Notes under the pieces: model-generated
The model's database searches: none
Told to the model about the DNA's origin: nothing
What the model saw: the letters and a program-made list of their open reading frames with translations, nothing else
Translations under genes and position numbers: made by a program
NCBI RefSeq assembly: GCF_000003815.2
Contig: NC_049988.1
Span: 2,475,662 to 2,539,661, forward strand
Direction of reading: 5' to 3'
Length of the DNA stretch: 64,000 bases
Source: Branchiostoma floridae
Taxonomy: Eukaryota; Chordata; Leptocardii; Amphioxiformes; Branchiostomatidae
In this document: piece after piece, positions 2,341 through 64,000 of the stretch
Position numbering within the stretch: position 1 is the first letter of the stretch
Layout of the letters: every line of letters starts with the position of its first letter

Positions 2341-4177
2341 TTACACCATAATCGCAATGGCAACATCCGTAATATCCAAGTACATTATAATTTGATACTA
2401 AAAAGAACGTTTCCATTCGTTTGTTTCCTTAATGGTTAGAGTTTTGTCGATTGTATTTCAAACAGCAAAGCGTATGGTTGACAACGTAACAATGTTATTG
2501 AATCAACAAGTGTTTGTAAATTATCCTTCACGTTGGAAATTAAAACATTATCCAAAGTTTAGAAAATATCACACCGTTTTATACAGCGAAAGACAATAAT
2601 CAATTAAACCAGCATTATATGGAATGGATGCAACCAAATGGAATAACCTTTAGACTAATTTACTTTCATATGTCACGCACACGTTACCTCCTTTCCTCTT
2701 ACTGATGATATAGTGGCTTTCATAATTTTCACTTTTATTCAAATACTCGAGAGTGATTTGATATTGATTTCACTTTCTTTTGTAGGAAGATTAGAAATAG
2801 GTTACATACTAATATGTTGATGACAGTAGATATTTTCTGCAGGCAACACCCCATCTGCTTAACTTGAGACGGAAAATTTCACCAAAACGACGGAAAAATT
2901 AAGCTGTTACTTGTGTCAGTTTTCTTCAACTTTCCTGATGAACACTTAGTTCACGATCATTTAGTCAATAAAGAAAGATTGGTGCGTAATATTAGTAAAG
3001 TACGATAAAGCACATGCTCATTTACTCAAGATAGCAACATATATACTCAAGAAAGTACGAAATAAAGCACTCTTAAAAAGGACAAACTGTTACTGGTTCC
3101 TTTATTACCTTGTAGAGTGAATGTGATGTGGCTCTTTTGCCCCCCCCCCCCCCTTCGTAATTTCAAAACGGCTTATGTTACGCTCACCAAATTTTTAGGA
3201 CACGATGTACTAGTGAAGTTTTATATTTTTTGTAAATTTATATTTTTTGTAATTTTGATATTGAATTTTCGCTATACCCAAAGCTATTAAACAAAATGAT
3301 GACTATAAACGGTAACTTTCCTACAATTATGATATGTTTAGCATGATTTATATCTTGAAATATTCACAAAAAACAAGTGTCACAAATATGACATTTACTT
3401 GCTATTGATATAATATAGCTATTTTTATTTATCATGAAAAAAATGGAATATTATTCATAATTTACATCTGTTAATATTTGTTTCTTGTACAATTTCTCCT
3501 CAGTCACAAAATTTAGATATATTCTCCACGTTAGTAATGCAAATTAAAATATGTTTAGCATAATTTATACCTTGAAATATACACCCCAAAAACACACATA
3601 TATTTTTTTAGCTATTTTTATTCATCTTGAATAAATGAATATTATACATGGTTTACATCTGTTGATATTGTTCCCTATTTAAATGACATTAATATGAATG
3701 TAAAAAAATACTTTCATATGTCACTTATGAAAAATATAATTCCCTCGGCAATGGTGCTTATCAATTCAAATGTAAACTCATAGTCATGTAAGTGCATCAT
3801 CAAATACTGTAATCGCCATTTATATGTCCAAAGACGCTCAAAATGGGTTCGATAAATTATATAAAGGTAGTATCTCACTGCACCTTGCAGTGTTGCATCG
3901 GTGCCTCAAGTGCAATTCGATACCACTTTGTCACTCAGTCATAAAAATTTGTATCATGTATAATGATTGTTTCTAAAAATACCCCGTTATTTTTATATAT
4001 ATATATATATATGTATGAATATATGTATGAATATATAGTGTCAGGACTTTCAGATTATGTTAGTTTTCTAAGGCACAAATTTTATGATAGTTTTCTACAG
4101 ACAACAGTAAAACGCAAATAAAACACATTATTAAAAACAAATCCTCGCAATATCGTCACATATATTGCATTTTTAGC

Positions 4178-7100
4178 TTACTGGTTATCATTTCTTTGCA
4201 TGGCATTAAAATCTAGTTGTCTCATTAATGTCATGTGTTTTTGTTCCTTCCAACGAGCAAATGCCTCCCAGATCACAATAGAAAACGTTCCTATCAGTAC
4301 ACATGTTAGACCCAAACCATCTAAAACAGTCGGAGCGAACCCTAACATTGCCCACTGGACGCTGTAGGCCGAAAACGCGCTGAGCTGAAACAGTGCAGTT
4401 ACTGCGTTAACCTCTACTAACTTTAGAGCGATATAGAGAAAGAGCACGAAGAGTGCGTGACTGACACAGCTTAGCACTAAGACTGCGGCAGGCACTGGTT
4501 CAAGGTGCCACGTGGAACTAGTAATAAACGCCCCTATCCCGGCAATCACTGTGCTGATACCGTACGTGTATGTTACAACCTTTGCCCTCGGGGTGGATTC
4601 TAAAAGACCTTTGGCGCCGACGTTTTGCATGGAGTGAATAAATGCTCCGGTTATGGTTAGAACTATTCCAAAAGTAATGTCTGCAGTGTCTGCTGATGAC
4701 TTCATGTTGACGAAGCTACCGTAGCCCAGAAGCGCGACACCTGCTATACACCACATGCTGCCGAGAACGGTTACACGAGTTGGAATCTGGAATAAAAGAA
4801 AAACAAATTGAATTATGTGGTAGAGTTTCTTCTAGTTGCAATTCACATCGATCTCGACTTATTAAATGTATTTATCTGTTACTTATGAATATTTTAATAC
4901 AATATAGTGACACTTCGTTAGGAGTTAACACTACCTCAAAATTTTCGATGTTTCCGAAGTACATCTGGTTCTAGGATAGTTCTTGTCTTGTGAGAGGTCG
5001 AGACAAGGTTCTAGACCTCCATGGACATTCTGCATACCTTAAAGTTTAGGAACTTTACCCTGTTACCGAATATACGCCCCGTCTTAATGCGGAGCAGAGC
5101 TAAAAAAAAAACTTGAGCTGCCGATGCGTTTACCATATCCGGACTGGGCTTTCTGGCCCTTCCCTGGCCTGGGGGGGGGGGATGCTCAAACGGCTTCAAA
5201 ACGGCTTACTGTACGATCAACAAACCTGCAGGGGGGGGGGGGTGGTTGTTGTGCTCATTAAGTTTTATAATTCCTGAATTTTCATATCATTATGACGTAA
5301 TATGACGTAATAATGACATCATTAATTGAAATTTTTGGCTAAAACTGGGAATTCCCATAATGCCTATATCTCAATCGGAAAATTACCAATAAAGGTTTCT
5401 TATTAATATCTACTTGTTATAAGACTGCTGTTGTCAAAGGCGACGCAACGACGTCAAAATGACGTCATAGGATGACGTCATCTGTAGTTTAGCTATCCGC
5501 CATCTTGGATTATCAACCTTAAATTTTAGAAAGATACATTTTTTTCAACATATAACGCTAAAACCCTATGAAAATGGATTAAAAATGTTCACATGAATGT
5601 TTTCTGTAAGAAAATACCAAGTAGTGATGAAATCTGAGTGAAAATAAGCTTGTTATACTTTTCATCATGATATTGTCGGCCATTTTGGATCTTGACCCAC
5701 GTCATCTCATTAGCATAACTTATGAATTTTTAATTATAAATGTTCAACTAAGATGTGTTACATATTAAAGATATATGAAAAGAAGTTAAGTTTAGCAAGA
5801 AAATCTTAAAATCACATTGTTTAAACCAAAATTAGTGATTTTTGTAAAATTTGCCTTTCAGAAACCCGTGGCCATGGCAACACGAAAAATAATAAACTTA
5901 CTCATTTTTTTCAAATTGTTGCCAACTATATTTTAAGAAAACTCACCAAGTTTGATTGTTCTAGCACAAGCCGTTTGGGAGCTATAGGAGGTCAGAGTTG
6001 GCGCAGGCACTTTTAGCCCCCCCCCCCCCCCCGGTCTGGATAGGGTTTAGGCAAAGTACCCTGGGCTGAAAGTGGGACGCTTTCTTATTCTTTCTGTAGT
6101 ATCAATACTGCACTACATTGGCTTCGTAGGGTCAAAAGATCCAAGCAAGTCTCGGACCTAGTATCGTGCTCTTAAAGGAAGTGTTTAAGTTTCGCTGCTT
6201 CAAGAATAGTCTGTAAACAAACTTAACTCGTTGTTAGTCCTGAGATATGGAACCTGTCGAGTACCGAGAGGGGGAGCGATGTAAGTGGCGGCATATTTAG
6301 CACTGTAGCAGTGGCACTGTAAACCACTTATACGTCAGTGTAGACCATCCTGACTTCAATATGGTATCCTTGGCTGTGTCTGGAGAAAGTCAAGAGTCAA
6401 TGATAACATCATATTTACCTCTTCAAGGAAGACACAGGACAAGGCCACCACAAAAACCGGCATGCCGGCGTTCCAGACGACTTCTGCGTTCGCAGGAGGG
6501 ATAAGACGGTACGACGTGTAGAGGCAGAGTATACTGGTGAATTGAGTCAATCCTTGGAAAAGCAATTTTGCTCCTTGTTTCCAGTCGTTTGGTAACATGT
6601 TTGTCCTTTGGTACACAGTGATCCCCAGAGCTACAAGCGAAATCAGCAGATCAAACAAGAAAAGTATCTGGTATGGTGTGTATCCTCGATCTTCTACGTA
6701 TCGTGATAACACCGGCACTGGACCAATAAAGAAACCGTGGGCCAGGCAGGCTGCTACACCTGACATTTTCTGAAACAACACACACACAAATTTAAATTGT
6801 TATGATAACAAGGAAAGTTCTCAATTGAAACACACAGTTAACACCGAGCGTCAAACACAATGTTGCTTAATAATGAGAGCGGGTTGATAAAATCCTGCAA
6901 ACCACTTCCAGATATTGTTATCGATCACAGACATATATATGTTAATGTCAAATTCTATCAAGTTGTTGACACTATCGACACTACTTGTATCGATTTGCTC
7001 ACTCGGTGATTTCAATCGGTGGTTTCATTCGGTGGTTATATGACCAGATGTTATCACAACGCATACACCTCGGGGTGGGTCAGTAACCCTTAAATGTCCA

Positions 7101-10557: not shown

Positions 10558-11698
10558 ATGTCCAGTATCAGGGTGAAATGCACGAAGTTGTCCTAAGTTA
10601 AGTTAGATGTCAGAAGTTGTCCAAAGTTGTCCGAAGTTGTCCGAAGTTATGACGTCACGCTAACCATGACGTCATCCTAACTTTGGACAGTCAGCCCGGG
10701 GGTGTACGGAGTTGTCCGAAGTTGTCCGAAGTTATGACGTCATCTTTATTATGACGTCATCCAAACTTTGTATAAAAAGACGGGAGGTTACCGAAATTGT
10801 CGGAAGTTGAGACGTAAATATAAAAGTGATTAGATCGAGATCTAAAAAGTCTGTGTTTTTGGTGGGACATAACGTTAAGAGGAGAAATAAAAGACAAAAA
10901 GACTTGAAATAAATGAATTTTTTTACAATGCATGAACATTGATTTTGTGGTGATTAATGTGCATCTATATTTTATTTGTTTATAAGCGTGAGTGGTGTGT
11001 ATCTTATTTACACATATACAAGTTTTTACTATGTGTTAATTAACTTTGGACAAGTTCGTACACATGCCGCCCTACCCTGCCTGCTGTACGAAGTTAGATG
11101 ACGTCACGTAACTTTGCACAACTTAGGACAACTTTGCACACTTGTTGACCTACCCCGCCCACTGTCCGAAGTTAGATGACGTCACGTAACTTTGCACAAC
11201 TTAGGACAACTTTGCACACTTGTTGACCTACCCTGCCCACTGTCCGAAGTTAGATGACGTCACGTAACTTTGCACAACTTAGGACAACTTTGCACACTTG
11301 TTGACCTACCCCGCCCACTGTCCGAAGTTAGATGACGTCATGTAACTTTGCACAACTTAGGACAACTTTGCACACTTGTTGACCTACCCTACCCACAGTC
11401 CGAAGTTAGATGACGTCACGTAACTTTGCACAACTTAGGACAACTTTGCACACTTGTTGACCTACCCTGCCCACTGTCCGAAGTTAGATGACGTCACGTA
11501 ACTTTGCACAACTTCGGACAACTTCGTACACTTGACACCTTACCCTGCCTACTGTACGAAGTTAGATTACGTCATCCAATTAATGTTTTGACGTCATCTG
11601 TGACTCCCGATATAGCCTCAAAACCAGTAAGAAACGGTTGTAACTTCGTACAACTTCGTACACCCTAACTTCGTGCACTTCACCCTGATACTGGACAT
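10558..11698. mobile_element. foldback (TIR) element with CRE arrays
   Basis: Ends are 32-bp inverted repeats differing at about one base: left 10558-10589, right 11667-11698, each containing GTCCAGTATCAGGGTGAA in its orientation. Both arms consist of short units based on CGAAGTTGTCC or its complement. The right arm holds the 78-bp tandem array. Numerous perfect TGACGTCA palindromes are present. No transposase is visible, so the element is nonautonomous. It is related to 880-1273 and more distantly to the motif at 27376. Confidence 0.75.
11040..11575 (+). repeat. 78-bp tandem repeat, about six copies
   Basis: Near-identical 78-bp units. The motif CGAAGTTAGATGACGTCA recurs at about 11089, 11167, 11245, 11323, 11401 and 11479. 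Each copy carries one TGACGTCA octamer. The array forms most of the right arm of the foldback element. High identity suggests recent expansion. Confidence 0.9.
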
Positions 11699-16880: not shown

Positions 16881-18960
16881 TTTCAGGTGATTTGATTTTT
16901 GTTTATGAGCCGATTTGCTTTTCGTTGGGTTTCTCGCTTGACAGGTTCTTGGACAACCCTAGGTAGAAAAAAAAAGTGTTTGCAGTTTTTTGTCTGGTTG
17001 GTGTCATGCAATAGTTTGTTGGACAATTGAACTGTTGGACAGTTTTTGTTTGCTGTTGTCGTACGACATGCTGTAAACAACCCCAGAGAGATAACAAGAC
17101 TGCTGGAAAGTTTTGTTGTTGTTGTCATGCGACAGGTTGTTGGACAACCCCAGGTAAGTAACAAGACTGTTGGACAGTTTTGTTTGTAGTTGTCATGCGA
17201 CAGGTTGTTGGACAACCCCAGGTAAGTGTACAAGACTTTTGGATAGTCCCGTATGTGGATGGACGACGGGTTGTTGGACAACCCCAGGTAAGTGTACAAG
17301 ACTATTGGATAGTTTTGTTTGTGGATGGACGACGGGTTGTGGGATAGCACCAGGCAGGTAACAGGACTGTTGGACAGTTTTGTTTGTTGATGTACGACAG
17401 GTTGTGGGACAACACCAGGCAAGTAACAAGACTGTTGGACAGTTTGATTTGTTGATGTACGACAGGCTGTGGGACGGCACCAGGCAAGTAACAGGACTGT
17501 TGGACAGTTTGGTTTGTTGATGTATACGATAGGCTGTGGGACAGCACCAAGCAAGTAACAAGACTGTTGGACAGTTTGATTTGTTGATGTACGACAGGCT
17601 GTGGGACGGCACCAGGCAAGTAACAGGACTGTTGGACAGTTTGGTTTGTTGATGTATACGATAGGCTGTGGGACAGCACCAGGCAAGTAACAAGACTGTT
17701 GGACAGTTTTGTTTGTTGATGTACGACAGGCTGTGGGACGGCACCAGGCAAGTAACAGGACTGTCGGACAGTTTGTTTGTTGATGTACGACAGGTTGTGG
17801 GACAACACCAGGCAAGTAACAAGACTGTTGGACAGTTTGGTTCGTTGATGTACGATAGGCTGTGGGACAGCACTAGGCAGGTAACAAGGTTATTGAACAG
17901 TTTGGTTTGTTGATGTACGGCGGGTTGTGGGACAACACCAACCAGGTAACAAGACTGTTGGACAGTTTGGTTGGTTGATGTACGACAGGCTGTGGGACAG
18001 CACCAGGCAAGTAACAAGACTGTTGGACAGTTTGGTTTGTTGTCGTGCGACAGGCTGTGGGACAGCACCAGGCAGGTAACAGGACTGTTGGACAGTTTGG
18101 TTTGTTGTCGTGCGACAGGCAGTGAGACAACGCCAGGTAGAGTAACAACAGTGTACGACAGTTTTTTGTTTGCTGTTGTCGTATGACAGGTTGTTGGACA
18201 ACCCCGGGTAGGTAACAAGACTGTTGGACAGTTTTGTTTGTTGTTGTCGTGCGACAGGTTGGTTAGATAACCCCAGAGAAGTAAAAAGGCTGCTCGACAG
18301 TTTTGTGACGCTGTGCTGTCGTACGACAGATTGTTGAGCAAATCCAGGAAGCCAACAAGACTGTTGGACATTTTTTGTTTTGTTGTTGTCGTGCGACAGG
18401 TTGTTAGACAACCCCAGAGAAGTAAAAAGGCTGTTAGACAGTTTTGTGGGTTGCCGTACGATAGATTGTTTAGCAACCCCAGGTAAGCAGCAAAACTGTT
18501 GGACATTTTTGTCTGTTGTTGTCGTGTGACAGGTTGTTAGACAACCTCAGAGAATTAAAAAGGCTGTTAGATAGTTTTGTGTGTTGTTGTACGACAGATT
18601 GTTGAGTAACCCCAGGTAAGCAGCAAGACTGTTGGAAAGTTTTTGGACTAGAGAAGTAAAGAGACTGTTAGACAGTTTTTCTGTTATCGCACGATACGTT
18701 GTTACAAATTTGTTACCCAGGTGTTAGTGGTTGGTCGCACGACAGGTTGTTTAGACAAGCCTAGGTAAGTAACATGGCTGGCGGACAGTTTTTTATTTTG
18801 TTTGTTATGCGACAAGTTGTGGGACAACCACAGGTGGAGTTTAAGACTGAAGGACAATTTTTGTGTGCTATGGAGCCGTACTATTAGTTATTGGACAGCT
18901 TCAGGCTGATAACAGGACTTGGTTTTCGTTCGGTTTGTTACTTGACAAGTCGAGGGACAA
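16880..18960. repeat. 65-bp minisatellite, about 30 copies
   Basis: Units are 65 bp, with some 67-bp variants that have an extra TA, most homogeneous between 17380 and 18130. Consensus landmarks are GACTGTTGGACAG, TTTGTTGATGTACGACAGG, TTGTGGGACAAC and CACCAGGCAAGTAACAAG. Many units carry a splice-donor-like sequence (CAGGTAAGT or the GC form CAGGCAAGT) and two short hairpins. All minus-strand frames stay open for long stretches (up to 437 codons, 18506-17193) because the unit lacks stops on that strand. Since 65 is not a multiple of three, the peptide cycles through frames, which argues against a real protein. Confidence 0.9.
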
Positions 18961-31911: not shown

Positions 31912-34900
31912 CTGCGAAGGGAAAATATGAAATAAAAAATTGTCAAAGAGATAGGACAGGTCAGGTATAAGAAACGTCAGGATAACAGATATGATTATGG
32001 TCATAGAAAAACAACAAATCCGAGAGGTCGGAGAGAATCAAAACCTGTATGAGATAACATGAATTTATATCTCACCGATAGAGTTGTTCTTCTCTGGCGG
32101 TTTCCAGACTGCCCGTGCAGGTTTCCCGTCATGCATCTCTCGCTGCTTGCGGAGAAAACTTGCCCAGTCGGGCGGTCGTTGTGGGAGGAGGATCTGCATG
32201 TGGTTCCAGAACCTGTCAACACAGGGCCAAACTTTCAGAATACTGTTTCCAACTAGTCGACATGCTAACGAATGTAGACTAAACCAGGCGTTCTGTTGCA
32301 GTATAACAGAAAACTGCTAGGAGGACCATAGTTAACCATGTCCTTACTTGTAATGAAACGTGTCCGGGTTCCGTGATATCCTGTTCTGAAAGCCGATGTA
32401 CAGGTCATCCCAAAACAGACCCTTTAGAACAGTCTGGCGATGGACTCCGATCCGGTTCTTGATCTGCGGGAAGAACACAGAGACTTCAGCCAATAACGTT
32501 AAAAAGTTAATCAACACTGGGACATCCAACGCAAAGAAAACAAATCCTAACATTATGCAACTTTAACCGATATGTGTATTCAGGAAATCTGTCACAATTG
32601 TAACTAGTAGATATGACGTTACCTCTAAGTACGCATGCTCCCTGGCTGGTCGCTGCTGAGGAAAGCTCAGATCTGAGAAATCCACCAGAAAGTCGTACCC
32701 GCCCTGGATAGGCTGGAAATCATCATCTGTCTCTATCATCTAATGTGGGGTGGACAAAACAGACGACTCAGTATTATACACATAGGCTGGAAATCATCAT
32801 CTGTCTCTATCATCTAATGTGGGGTGGACAAAACAGACGATTCAGTATCATACACATAGGCTGGAAATCATCATCTGTCTCTATCATCTAATGTGGGGTG
32901 GACAAAACAGACGATTCAGTATCATACACATAGGCTGGAAATCATCATCTGTCTCTATCATCTAATGTGGGGTGGACAAAACAGACGACTCAGTATGATA
33001 CACATAGGCTGGAAATCATCATCTGTCTCTATCACCTAATGTGGGGTGGACAAAACAGACGATTCAGTATCATACACATAGGCTGGAAATCATCATCTGT
33101 CTCTATCATCTAATGTGGGGTGGACAAAACAGACGACTCAGTATTATACACATAGGCTGGAAATCATCATCTGTCTCTATCATCTAATGTGGGGTGGACA
33201 AAACAGACGATTCAGTATCATACACATGGGCTGGAAATCATCATCTGTCTCTATCATCTAATGTGGGGTGGACAAAACAGACGACTCAGTATGATACACA
33301 TAGGCTGGAAATCATCATCTGTCTCTATCATCTAATGTGGGGTGGACAACACAGACGATTCAGTATGATACACATAGGCTGGAAATCATCATCTGTCTCT
33401 ATCATCTAATGTGGGATGGACAAGACAGACGATTCAGTATGATACACATAGGCTGGAAATCATCATCTGTCTCTATCATCTAATGTGGAATGGACAACAC
33501 GGACGACTCAGTATGATACACATAGGCTGGAAATCATCATCTGTCTCTATCATCTAATGTGGGGTGGACAAAACAGACGATTCAGTATGATACACATAGG
33601 CTGGAAATCATCATCTGTCTCTATCATCTAATGTGGGGTGGACAACACGGACGACTCAGTATTATACACATAGGCTGGAAATCATCATCTGTCTCTATCA
33701 TCTAATGTGGAATGGACAACACGGACGACTCAATAAGATACACATAGGCTGGGAATCATCATCTGTCTCTAACATCTAATGTGGAATGGACAACACGGAC
33801 GACTCAGTATGATACACATAGGCTGGAAATCATCATCTGTCTCTATCATCTAATATGGAATGGAAAACACGGACGAATCAATGTGATACATGTATACACA
33901 TAGGCTGGAAATTATCATCTGTCTCTATCATGTTATATGGAATGGACAACACGGACGACGTCGCGACTCAGTATGATACACATAGGCTGGAAATTATCAT
34001 CTGTCTCTATCATCTTATATGGAATGGACAACACGGACGACTCAGTATGATACACATAGGCTGGAAATTATCATCTGTCTCTACCATCTTATATAGAATG
34101 GACAACACGGACGACTCAGTATGATACACATAGGCTGGAAATCATCATCTGTCTCTATCATCGACAACACGGACGACTCAATAAGATACAAATAGGCTGG
34201 AAATCATCATTCGTCCCTATGATCTAATGTAGAATGGACAACACGGACGACTCAATATCAAACACACAAATACACTAATGCATGCATGTAACACAAACAC
34301 ACACAAGGACACACACACATACATACGGACAGACGCATGGACCCACAGATACACACACACACACACGGCTGCATACATACACACACAAGAACTTAAATAC
34401 GTGCAAAATTTCGCACAGCTATCCTTTGACCGTCCGCAAATTGGCCAAAGAGTGGTTCATGACTGAGGTATTTGTTTTATCTACTTAATATCCCTTGCGC
34501 AAAATGATATGATTGACGTACTCACCCTCAGGACAAGATTATAGTCTTTGAACCCCGCCCACATGTAGTACACCTGAATCCAGTCTGGGTAGGCAAAAAT
34601 CTCACTCTTAATGCAGTCGTTGATCTTGTCGATGTACGAGTTGAAGTCCCAACTGTCTTTGTAGATCTTAGTCCCGGGAAGAGGATCCACTATTGCAAGC
34701 CTTGAAAAAAATATTCTAAATATTCTATCAACTTAAGAATTACGCTATTTAAAATACTCAATTTATATATAATTATCTATTGGATGAGATAGTACAATTA
34801 GTGATTCACAGGTAAGTTAGTCTAAATGTTGCAATAAGCAATTTAAAAATTGTTCCATATACTTTTTAATTTTTTTTTGTTTCTATTTTCTGCTAAAAAT

Positions 34901-52021: not shown

Positions 52022-53149
52022 TCACTTGTTCAGTAAGTTCACAAGATATGGTATAGGCGAGTTCTTGTATCTGTCCGTACGGCATAGTGGCATGTCCAGT
52101 TTCTCTGAGCTGCGCGTGGAACGTCCAGTCACGTGCTGTCTGGATGGAGGGAGCCAGTCCCGGAACTCTGATCGTAGTAACGACTCCGCGAAAGTGGCGC
52201 AGATACTGATTCGTCGGTCAGCTAGTGTGCTGAGGTCTAGTGTTGAAAGTGCTGAAGCATAGTCAGTGTAGTGAATTCCGAGAATGATTTTACATGCTCT
52301 CTTTTGGATTCTCTCCAGTTTTGCTGCCTGGTCCTTGGTTATTGACGAGTGCCACACAGGTACCGCGTACTCAAGCGCAGGTCTCACATACGACATGTAT
52401 ACCGACTTAAGGTCAGCGAGAGACACACCAAAACGCTTGAGCCGACGAAGTATGTACAATCTCCTGTTGGCTGACGTGAGCATGTTACTGACTTGAATGT
52501 TCCATTTAAGGTCATTCTGCACAGTTAAACCTAGCACTTTGACGTGTGACACGCACTTCAGGGGTTGTTCACTGATCATCAGTGGTTGCGGAGGGGGAGG
52601 TGCCTTCATGAAGCACACACGGAGTACGAAACATTTCTTTGGGTTCAAAGTCATCTTGTGGTCGCTGACCCATGTGGTAAGGTTGTCGAGTGTGGGCTGT
52701 AGTGTACATGGCTGACGTACTAACCGGGTCTGTGCAATGTTCATGTCGTCAACGAACTTCCAACGGTCGGCGACTTCGCGAAGCGCTCCATCAATTAATG
52801 CCATGAAAATAACTGGACCAAGAAGTGTTCCTTGCGCTACTCCGCAGCTAAGGTAGAGCCAGTCCGAGAGTTCTCCCTGGTACATCACTCTCTGCCGTCT
52901 GTCGGTAATAAAGCTACAAATCCAGGGGATGACAGCCGGCCGAACACCAAGATCGAGTAGGGAACGAATGGCAATGGTATGGTCCACTTTGTCAAAAGCT
53001 TTAGACAGATCTGTTGTAACAAGGGTGCAGATTGACTTTGACACTGACGTGGATTTGTAGAGGAAGTCCACAAAACTGACCAGTGCGTGTGTTGTTGATC
53101 TGTGCTTCCTTCCCCCAAACTGGCGGTGATCGAGTCTTGGCGATATGTC
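52022..53149 (-). pseudogene. retrotransposon RT catalytic half, after the nonsense codon
   Basis: Continues in the same frame as the upstream part, directly after the TAG. It contains RT palm motifs with FVDD (about codon 106 from the first Met at 53071) and the C-terminal thumb-like region ending LVNLLNK. It has no start of its own, so it is interrupted in this copy unless the stop is read through. Confidence 0.85.
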
Positions 53150-55003
53150 CTATACTATCCAATTTGTCACGAAGCGTTCACAGAGTTTAGACAACATTGG
53201 AGTGAGAGAGATGGGCCGAAGTTCGTCGATGTTTGGAGGGCTGGACTTTGGCAGTGGAACCACATTGGCTTCCTTCCATTGACGGGGTACGGTGCCTTCT
53301 TTCAACGACGTGTTAAGTAAGTCACACAGAGGAGTGCTCAGTTCACACGCGAATTCCTTGAGGAGGAAGGCAGGAACATTATCAGGTCCGGGACTCTTGT
53401 AAGTGTTGGTGGCGCGTAGGTGTGAGTAAACCTCCCATTCCTGGATAACAGGTAACGGTTGGGCCGGAAGGAATGATGGGAGAGACGACAGATCCAGCGG
53501 TGGGAGTGACTGAGACACGCTTGCAAACTTGGCATTAATGGCGTTGGCTAAGGCTGCGTGGTCGTTCTGATCGATGCCGGGAGCGTAGATCCGACTGGCT
53601 TTCCTGTTCATGTTACAAATCGACTTGAGTCCATTGTGCCATGCCCTAGGATTGTCCTTCCTGCGGCCCTCAATGTCGATCGTGTAGAACTTGTTTTTAG
53701 CCTTCCGGATTTCTTTTTGAACTTTGTTTCTGTAGAACTTTGACATGGCGGTGCAACTTCCATTTGTGAATGTTCTCTGTCTCTGCTGTATAAGGTGCTT
53801 GATTCTTGGAGTTATCCAGGGTTTGTCACAGTGGTGTTGTTTAACAGTCTTAGTGGGGAAGTACTCCGCGATGGCAGACGTCAGTGTACTGTAGAATGTA
53901 TCTGCCTTTTCTTCAGTTGTGGTTGCAGCTAAAACCTCCTCCCAAGTATGGGTAGTAATCCATCTCCCAAAGTGACTCAGATTTGGTTCCCGAATGGGAC
54001 GAATGAGCTTCTTTGTGCAGGTGTTTTGCTTAAGTTTAACCTGGGCTTGCCAGAGAACACAACAGTGGTCACTAAGACCGATCGGTGGGAGGATTTTGGG
54101 GGGTTTGTAGCACGTCTTCATGTTTGTCACGATGAGATCAAGGGTGGCGTTGCCTCTTGTGCAGCTCTGGACGACTTGTGAGAGTTCACGGTCAAGGAGA
54201 ATGCTGTGGATGTTCAGGTGATTGAAGTCCCCCAGGAAGGCAAGACCGATGTTCTGAAAGCTTGTACGCAGTTGATCTGCCGCTGAAATGATGTGTTCTA
54301 CGAGTTCCTCCTCGTGTGGTGACTGAGGAGGTGAGTACAAAGCACACAAGGCAATGGACGAGAACTGACGAGTCAGGCGGTGTGGTCGCACGTAGACCCA
54401 AAGACATTCCAGCTGTTCTGGGACAGTGATTTCAGTCAGTACACGAGACGGTATGCTGTCATGTACATACACAGCTACCCCACCTCCACGACGATCTGTG
54501 CGACATTTAGAGTACAAGGTATATCCTTCGACTGACTGTTGTTCATGTGGTGTGGAGGGCATAAACCAGGACTCGGAGACCGCAGCAATATCCACGTTAT
54601 TGCTTGTGAGAACGGCCTGGAATTCGTCAATTTTGTTGACAAGAGATCGTGGATTAGTGAGTAGGAATGTCGGAACAGCAGTGGTACAGCTGGGCTGGTG
54701 AACAGCCGGGGTACAGCTGGGCTGGTGATTGCTTACTGTTTTGATGCTCGTCAAGTTTGCGCGGGAAACGGGTGAAGACAACAAGGGAGGGCGGTGGAAT
54801 GTAATCAAGTCATTTCTCCTTCCTACAACAGTTTCAATTTTACGCAAACAGTTCCTACCGGCTTTCTTGCCTCTCGGCCTGCTTGAGCCCCGAAGGATTC
54901 CGTTGTCTCTTAGGAGTTGCTTGAGCTGTGGACATGTTGTCGCATGGCTCGGCTTGAGACTCCTCATGAAGTCCATGGAGTACCTGAACACGCTGGAAGC
55001 CAT
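53150..55003 (-). CDS. retrotransposon endonuclease and N-terminal RT segment
   Basis: The 617-codon upstream part of the LINE polyprotein, including the AP endonuclease-like domain (about residues 110-330) and the fingers region of the RT. A short proline/serine-rich internal repeat (QPSCTPAVHQPSCTTAV) precedes the endonuclease. It ends at the in-frame TAG, just before the conserved RQFGGRK segment. Confidence 0.9.
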   Translation of the reverse strand: MASSVFRYSMDFMRSLKPSHATTCPQLKQLLRDNGILRGSSRPRGKKAGRNCLRKIETVVGRRNDLITFHRPPLLSSPVSRANLTSIKTVSNHQPSCTPAVHQPSCTTAVPTFLLTNPRSLVNKIDEFQAVLTSNNVDIAAVSESWFMPSTPHEQQSVEGYTLYSKCRTDRRGGGVAVYVHDSIPSRVLTEITVPEQLECLWVYVRPHRLTRQFSSIALCALYSPPQSPHEEELVEHIISAADQLRTSFQNIGLAFLGDFNHLNIHSILLDRELSQVVQSCTRGNATLDLIVTNMKTCYKPPKILPPIGLSDHCCVLWQAQVKLKQNTCTKKLIRPIREPNLSHFGRWITTHTWEEVLAATTTEEKADTFYSTLTSAIAEYFPTKTVKQHHCDKPWITPRIKHLIQQRQRTFTNGSCTAMSKFYRNKVQKEIRKAKNKFYTIDIEGRRKDNPRAWHNGLKSICNMNRKASRIYAPGIDQNDHAALANAINAKFASVSQSLPPLDLSSLPSFLPAQPLPVIQEWEVYSHLRATNTYKSPGPDNVPAFLLKEFACELSTPLCDLLNTSLKEGTVPRQWKEANVVPLPKSSPPNIDELRPISLTPMLSKLCERFVTNWIV

Positions 55004-55390
55004 TGTTGTGGTGTCTGGGTGAGGGACGCCGGTGAGGAAGTCCGATTTCCGCAGTTAAGTTCACGTCAGTAAGATAAAATGGCACCCAACCTTGTCTAGA
55101 CGTCTTCACGGACACTTATAATGACACTTGTGAACATCCACAACAGTTTAAAATCTAAAATAAGCATAAAACCATGACGGCTGCCTAGGAGATAATTCAT
55201 GACGTGGCTGCCCCTAGAAGCGCCACCTACCGATAGATATTCTATGCTAAAGTAAATCTTTAGCATAGAATAGGTCAAGTCTTACTAATTAACTGACCAG
55301 CTTTTAAGTAAAGTAGATAAATTGGAAAACGTGCTGTAAAGTACGGTATTATTACTTGATGTTGGCCATGTAGAAGTTGCGTAGTTAAAA

Positions 55391-62461: not shown

Positions 62462-64000
62462 TTATTCCCCTTTAAGATATGGCAGAGAAATGCGTGCCAC
62501 AGAGCAATGAGAAGCTTGTACTATGTAAGTCTTACCAGGTAAGGTGCTCTTTAAATCTTGCCAGGCACCAGCAGCCCTGTCATACACATATACAAGATAA
62601 TGGTCTTCCTCTTTCTCGAAGTCGCTATTGTAAGACAACAGTATGTGCAGCTGGTTATCCAGTGCGAAAAGACTGAGATAAAGATCCATCACGTTGTGAC
62701 TTGGGAACAGCGACCTTGGCCAGCCTTGTAGTTTCTGCCAACAGTCGGACTTTGTGTCATACAACATTGTCTTAGTGAAGTCATGATCTGTGCAGAAAAC
62801 CTCGGTTCCTATGGCAACGGCTGTGCAGACTTCATCCATGATGATCGGTGGGGTGCGCTTCATCCACTGGTCCTGGCCTGGGTTGTAGCGATGCACTTCC
62901 GTGCTTGTGAGGAAATATAAGTGTGGCCCGCAAGACACTACCGAAAAGAAGTATGCAGTATCGTCTAGTTGCAACTGTGAGCACTCCTGCCACCGGTCTG
63001 TGTGCTGGTTGTACTTTCGCATCCACGCCAATCCAGTGCCATGTCGATCAGCAATAATGTAATACAAAATCCGATCCATTTCAAGCAGGAGCTGGTAGCA
63101 GGACTTCAAACTATCTCCCGGTCCCCTAGACATTGTGAACCTACTTACATGTTCCCACACATTCTCTGCATGGTAGTACCTAAACAGGGACAGTACGTTC
63201 TTGTTCTTTAATTCCTTAGTATCCAGGATGTAAATATCATTATCACTGGTGACTGTCATGGCCCTGGTAAGGGGCGAGGTATCAGGTAGTTCGTCATACC
63301 CACAGCTGATGTACTTTCCTTCCTGTGGATTCATGAACAGGATCTCATTGGAACTAGAGAAAGATAAAATACATCGGAAACTGTCAATACATCTGGACTA
63401 CCAAACATTATCTTTAGGGTCTTGGCTAAAACCAAAGGAAGAAAATATATATGCTTTTATTTGTAACATTTAACACCATTGAGAGTTGCTTTAGGTCAGT
63501 CAAATTAGGTGCAGATTATATTTGCCAGTCTGATACGTAGGAAATGTGTACTGCAGGACCATAAAATATGGCATTGGCGAGGCAAGGCAAGTTAAACGAA
63601 GTATAAGACATATGGACCCACCCCACATCCACATTGGACAGCAGAACCATTTCCATGGTTATACCAAGTCTCGGCACCGGGTTAAATTTCCTCTTCCGTA
63701 TCAAATTCCTGATGACATCACAACTCTCTGGATCCTCCCTGACTAGTGGATGTTCCGAGATGGCTTTTGTGAGGTCTGAGGTCAGCCGGTTGAAGCGGAT
63801 GTAAGGGAGGATGTTAGGTAGGTGGTGCAGTCTGTAGGATACAGGGAAGAGAAGGATATGACGTAATTTTAGGACATGTAGACAATTTGGGGATATTGAA
63901 ACAGGCAAAAAACGTCTGCGGACACATGCAATTAAGTAGGCACAAGATTGACAGACACCCAAACCAGGACAACACTAACCTGCCCTCCCTGCTGTGCTGC
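62462..64000 (-). CDS. kelch-like (KLHL) protein, BACK plus Kelch part, partial
   Basis: The 3' end of a BTB-BACK-Kelch gene, a likely substrate adaptor for a CUL3 ubiquitin ligase. The remainder lies beyond the right edge. Exons are: partial 64000-63980, 63831-63622 (210 bp) and 63353-62462 (297 codons including stop). Phases fit: AG/A makes an Arg codon and GG/T a Gly codon. The middle exon shows the C-terminal BACK signature (LPNILPYIRF, then SEHPLV, then CDVIRNLI). The last exon carries Kelch blades in which W and YDP-like motifs recur (VWEHVS, DRWQECS, RYNPGQDQWMK, DCWQKLQG, VYDRAAGAWQDL). The donor at the BACK/Kelch junction is GTGGGT at 63621, chosen by phase. A strong donor-like CTG/GTAAGA near 62535 leaves open an alternative 3' end with a further exon. 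BTB domain not seen. Confidence 0.85.

Follow-up and report, generated by a model that had tools for sequence, protein, structure and literature searches.

A mirage-like minisatellite spanning the intron 11–exon 12 border of the CMAH gene in Branchiostoma floridae

The CMAH (CMP-Neu5Ac hydroxylase) gene of the lancelet Branchiostoma floridae carries, at the border of intron 11 and exon 12, a minisatellite in which the 3' splice site itself is the repeated sequence. The gene lies on the minus strand of a 64,000-nucleotide stretch of contig NC_049988.1 (assembly GCF_000003815.2, positions 2,475,662 to 2,539,661; hereafter the window, whose coordinates are used throughout). The array has 21 units, namely 20 copies and, as the last unit in the direction of transcription, the real site. 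We give a probability of roughly 0.8 to the reading that this is a minisatellite of the lancelet kind called "mirage", grown from the intron 11/exon 12 border, and that the last acceptor would win through pairing of splice sites across exon 12.

The CMAH gene and its repeated border

Twelve coding exons of CMAH were modelled between 41684 and 32348; their numbering presumes one further N-terminal coding exon upstream of the model. The joined reading frame was free of stops across all twelve exons, so that the gene looks maintained, and every border was GT/AG. The vertebrate CMAH sequence used as query was a reconstructed one. In a tblastn search it gave 11 collinear matches from 41.6 kb to 32.15 kb, each with E < 1e-5, the final one covering exons 12–14, and the joined protein without its ends was 65% identical to it over 501 alignment columns. 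The exon 11/12 junction was ungapped in this alignment (..NLVLR/MIETDDDF..). The identification of the gene thus rests on a reconstructed sequence, yet over nearly its full length. Two Pfam families of the beta-lactamase superfamily matched the protein below their cut-offs (E 5.8e-5 and 1.1e-4), and a PDB search with it returned no match at E 0.001. Prokaryote relatives of CMAH, which could have checked the exon 11/12 junction independently, did not turn up in two prokaryote genome scans. The exon 12 start is supported by the open joined frame, the GT/AG borders and the collinear alignment. Together with the division of the array into units, these results bear out an earlier reading of the sequence alone, which had named the CMAH gene, its exon 12 and a repeated acceptor. 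The parts of the gene model and of the array needed below are as follows.

34526..34700, minus strand: CMAH coding exon 11 of the gene model, 175 nt, 3' end ..CTG AGG followed by GTGAGT
32740..34525, minus strand: intron 11, phase 0, 1786 nt, of which the array takes up 1526 nt (85%)
32623..32739, minus strand: CMAH coding exon 12, 117 nt, both ends phase 0; unit U21 takes its exonic part from the first 32 nt (32739..32708)
32348..32463, minus strand: CMAH coding exon 13 of the gene model, 116 nt
32708..34265, minus strand: minisatellite of 21 units (20 copies and the real site), from U01 (34265) to U21 (32708), by Tandem Repeats Finder (TRF) and unit split
34130..34191, minus strand: unit U02, 62 bp; a 12-bp deletion takes out the acceptor AG (at 34161)
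33900..33981, minus strand: unit U05, 82 bp; the acceptor reads AC in place of AG (at 33931)
33078..33151, minus strand: unit U16, identical to the real unit U21 at 74 of 74 positions
33004..33077, minus strand: unit U17, first exonic base changed from A to G, giving TTAG/GTGATA

TRF run on the window reported the array at 32708–34266 with a period of 74, 21.0 copies, 91% matches and a score of 2302. As a control, 20 dinucleotide-preserving shuffles of the window were searched; six of them yielded one array apiece, with a top score of 58. Units were cut at the repeat's own end motif, and the outer edge of U01 was fixed by counting 74 nt back. In a full unit, 42 nt from the end of intron 11, stopping at the acceptor, are followed by 32 nt from the start of exon 12. 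The sequence-only reading had described about 21 units of 74 bp at 32711–34215 with 29 repeated exonic bases. The number of units stood, as did the placement of the real exon start in the last unit, U21, which runs on into exon 12 proper (CCAGGGCGGG..) with no further unit downstream. The length of 74 bp holds for 18 of the 21 units (62 bp in U02, 82 bp in U05 and U06), the span is replaced by 32708–34265, and 32 exonic bases were counted. An acceptor AG had also been ascribed to every unit; it is retained in 18 of the 20 copies, U02 and U05 being the exceptions. A tandem array whose unit spans the intron–exon boundary, and whose copies carry splice signals, has the sequence-level features of a mirage, as seen here in the sequence of one allele.

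Proposed growth and homogenisation of the array

Divergence from the real unit is highest in the units farthest from it: identity to U21 is 76–91% in U01–U08 and 93–100% in U09–U20. U15, U19 and U20 share one sequence, and U16 and U21 another. The two-unit block U15–U16 therefore reappears as U20–U21 at the functional end of the array, which we read as a recent unequal (block) exchange that would have taken in the functional splice site. On this account a segment with 42 nt from the end of intron 11 and 32 nt from the start of exon 12 would have been duplicated in tandem. Amplification and partial homogenisation by unequal exchange would have followed, the real splice site being drawn in as the terminal unit. 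A whole exon remains downstream of the copies after every such duplication, so that the mRNA would stay unaltered provided that the last acceptor is used.

Thirteen of the 20 copies have exactly the exonic part of the real unit, as would be expected if these 32 nt were kept uniform either through conversion by the real exon or through selection acting on it. Minority letters fill 12 of 672 exonic cells of the unit alignment compared with 74 of 870 intronic cells, and random sets of 32 columns were equally low in 0.6% of draws (P 0.006), a figure that overstates the exonic likeness because the cells share ancestry. A count of distinct changes shows a weak excess (P 0.175 with all 21 units, 0.052 with U03–U21, that is, without U01 and U02), and so does a count of variable columns (P 0.26 and 0.046, respectively). 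Among the 74 circular positions that a block of 32 columns can take, 5, the actual one included, were as low or lower. Since the difference is weak by distinct changes, we claim no selection on the copies, and consider upkeep of the exonic part from the real exon unlikely.

That an array should cross an exon border is unsurprising in itself, given how often random placement produces it. With CMAH exons alone counted, random placement of the array in the window led it across one side of a modelled exon in 4.6% of draws. At least one such crossing by any of 21 arrays occurred in 45%; these arrays were hand-picked from 36 TRF rows, with overlaps merged and with 2–5-base simple repeats and a 12-base AT-rich repeat (3995–4037) excluded. 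Placement within the gene span gave a crossing in 26% of draws, and in 70% of the 1315 of 20000 draws that swallowed no whole exon. We therefore rejected border crossing as a remarkable feature in its own right. Boundary-crossing duplications may be the kind of exon-touching duplication that leaves the coding sequence whole, and for that reason purifying selection would spare them. A search for further mirages in the gene, with 121-nt stretches around each of the remaining 23 exon borders in the 12-exon model, gave no second BLAST match in the window at E up to 1e-2.

Decoy acceptors and the probable choice of the last one

Counting the real site, the array offers 19 look-alike acceptors, the real one being the last. 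The acceptor sequence (20 intronic plus 3 exonic nt) is the same as the real one in 7 of the 20 copies (U10, U14, U15, U16, U18, U19 and U20), and in U16 the identity extends from 118 nt before the acceptor to 32 nt past it. When the frame of exon 11 was continued into a copy, a stop followed after 51–78 nt, always inside the next unit, for all 20 copies. The sequence-only reading had expected a TGA in the next unit; a stop is indeed met there in every case, as TGA from 17 copies, TAG from two and TAA from one. Its conclusion that a correct product needs the last acceptor holds for the whole array. Joining a copy to exon 12's own donor (32622) would give exons of 191, 265, 339 ... nt, compared with 117 nt from the real site.

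Because the 150 nt around them are identical, the choice between U16 and U21 is not decidable from local sequence, and the deciding information must be position or must lie outside this stretch, for example past exon position 32. Donor-like sites suggest how position could act. GT dinucleotides were scored with a donor matrix of approximate human values, and the threshold was set at the second-weakest donor of the CMAH model (4.08). Only 1 of the 130 GTs in the array reached it (in U17, 5.48). In the remaining ten introns of the CMAH model 33 of 348 GTs did so, with 5–12 such GTs per array-length stretch. The exonic part of the real unit lacks GT altogether, and GT occurs in the exonic part of U03, U07 and U17 only. 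We rejected the copies as micro-exons or new introns because donor-like sites are so few. Definition of a copy as a separate exon is improbable: with many acceptors and almost no donors in the array, the donor of exon 12 would have to serve nearly all of the acceptors. The sequence past exon position 32 adjoins the real site only, and the acceptor nearest to the donor of exon 12, beside the unique part of that exon, would win.

As a separate observation, U17 has its acceptor fused directly to the donor-like site scoring 5.48 (window position 33035), the layout of a recursive splice point.

Several points weigh against this account of the choice. Last-acceptor use is itself inferred from the genomic sequence. 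The weakest modelled donor, that of exon 4 (CAG/GTCTCA), has a score of 0.45, which 27 of the 130 array GTs match or surpass. The scarcity of donors is no evidence of selection, because one repeated 74-bp sequence is a single observation counted many times. Exon definition alone would not exclude U18–U20, since exons of 191–339 nt are not too long for it. Finally, the AG region of the real site was predicted to be more accessible than the mean of the 20 copies, by 1.3–1.5 standard deviations, in three folding settings (0.57, 0.66 and 0.70, compared with 0.45, 0.44 and 0.43), so that structure could make a small contribution against the far copies. In the same predictions, U14 matched or exceeded the real site in all three settings and U18–U20 came near it. 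RNA structure was rejected as the discriminator, as predicted accessibility of the pyrimidine tract, the AG and the branch region failed to separate the real site from the near copies.

The same decoys could instead be used at a measurable rate, their premature-stop transcripts being degraded, so that allele length would tune CMAH output in the manner of a poison-exon-like rheostat. The AG in 18 of 20 copies, the real 23-nt acceptor in seven of them and the early stop from all 20 are what such a device would need. The copies, however, show no visible upkeep: two have lost the AG, and amino-acid-changing substitutions occur in several exonic parts (U01, U03–U05, U07 and U17). Published data suggest, moreover, that splicing is undisturbed at mirages in Adh3 and a globin gene (PMC3087553). 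We regard decoy use at a measurable rate as quite improbable, and favour pairing of the last acceptor with the donor of exon 12.

Known mirages, the wider window and significance

Mirages have been reported in the Adh3, TnC, globin and PGBD5 genes of lancelets (PMC3087553, PMC3902484), in agreement with the sequence-only reading, which had pointed to unstable amphioxus minisatellites at exon–intron borders. Among the globins they occur in BflGb6 and BflGb9, after earlier description in Adh3, and somatic instability was found at Adh3 (PMC3087553). As in these three genes, the CMAH repeats lie in tandem over an intron–exon boundary, many but not all copies have splice signals, and homogenisation is partial. 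Unlike BflGb6, with six and three repeat units of 150–160 bp in two haplotypes, and Adh3, with units of 10–72 bp (PMC3087553), CMAH has 21 units with a basic length of 74 bp. In BflGb6, two units at the boundary escaped homogenisation (PMC3087553). In CMAH, the unit with the real site is identical to the inner unit U16. PGBD5 likewise has tandem repeats over splice sites; it is another gene, and the repeat there is an imperfect 108 bp triplication, reported with TnC cited (PMC3902484). Adh3 data and the authors' own reverse-transcription PCR suggest that regular splicing is undisturbed in Adh3 and a globin gene (PMC3087553), and splicing was also suggested to be normal with the Adh and TnC mirages, the PGBD5 repeats being non-interfering (PMC3902484).

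Copies that join the 3' end of an intron to the 5' part of an exon have already been reported (PMC3087553, PMC3902484). The kind is therefore published, 3'-border contact included, and the CMAH case is a long addition to it that stands out through its many copies and through having one decoy with exactly the sequence of the real site. No CMAH mirage was named in titles or abstract openings among the matches listed in our literature search. The passages of PMC10225777, PMC5000683 and PMC2809761 that came up had no bearing on the array, and those of the first two held no statement of CMAH in amphioxus. Arrays of near-identical units are hard to assemble, but inflation of a short array or collapse of a longer one is a very unlikely source of this copy number, as substitutions, a deletion and insertions, graded along the array, tell most units apart, and only U15/U19/U20 and U16/U21 are indistinguishable.

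A related case is the potato RdRp gene, in which a duplication across an intron–exon border gave a new intron, the donor GTAAG recruited from the exonic segment having turned the copy into an exon (PMC4974935). As in CMAH, the duplicated segment comprised an intron end and an exon start, with branch site, pyrimidine tract and AG. Unlike in potato, the exonic part of the real CMAH unit has no GT and the array has few donor-like sites; by predicted score, no usable donor is supplied by the copies in the way that intron gain would need (1 of 130 GTs at or above 4.08).

Elsewhere in the window, a second large minisatellite occupies 17031–18643, with a period of about 65 (and 130) bp and many units having donor-like CCAGGTAAG or CCAGGCAAG on the plus strand. 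Minisatellites at 10608–10809, 11042–11574 and 875–1018, with units of 85, 78 and 70 bp, share motifs such as CGAAGTT and ATGACGT and are perhaps one dispersed family. On the minus strand, two adjoining open frames at 52022–55054, with an endonuclease-like match (E 1e-4, below cut-off) and a reverse-transcriptase match (Pfam RVT_1, E 9.9e-22), look like a retrotransposon lacking long terminal repeats (non-LTR). The same strand holds an EamA-transporter-like frame at 4178–4831 (E 4.4e-9) and a Kelch-like frame at 62462–63397 (E 4.1e-8, below the Kelch cut-off).

One far-reaching proposal would make the array a length-variable brake on CMAH, in which early-stop transcripts derived from decoys rise with copy number, allele length sets the level of N-glycolylneuraminic acid (Neu5Gc), and the functional acceptor is repeatedly replaced from the array. 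We give it very little credence. The 150 nt around the real acceptor are repeated letter for letter 370 nt farther upstream, at a decoy within the same transcript, which makes the locus a natural experiment on 3' splice-site choice. Being long and countable, the CMAH array also offers a place to begin the study of mirage variation, of interference with splicing and of the seeding of new introns.
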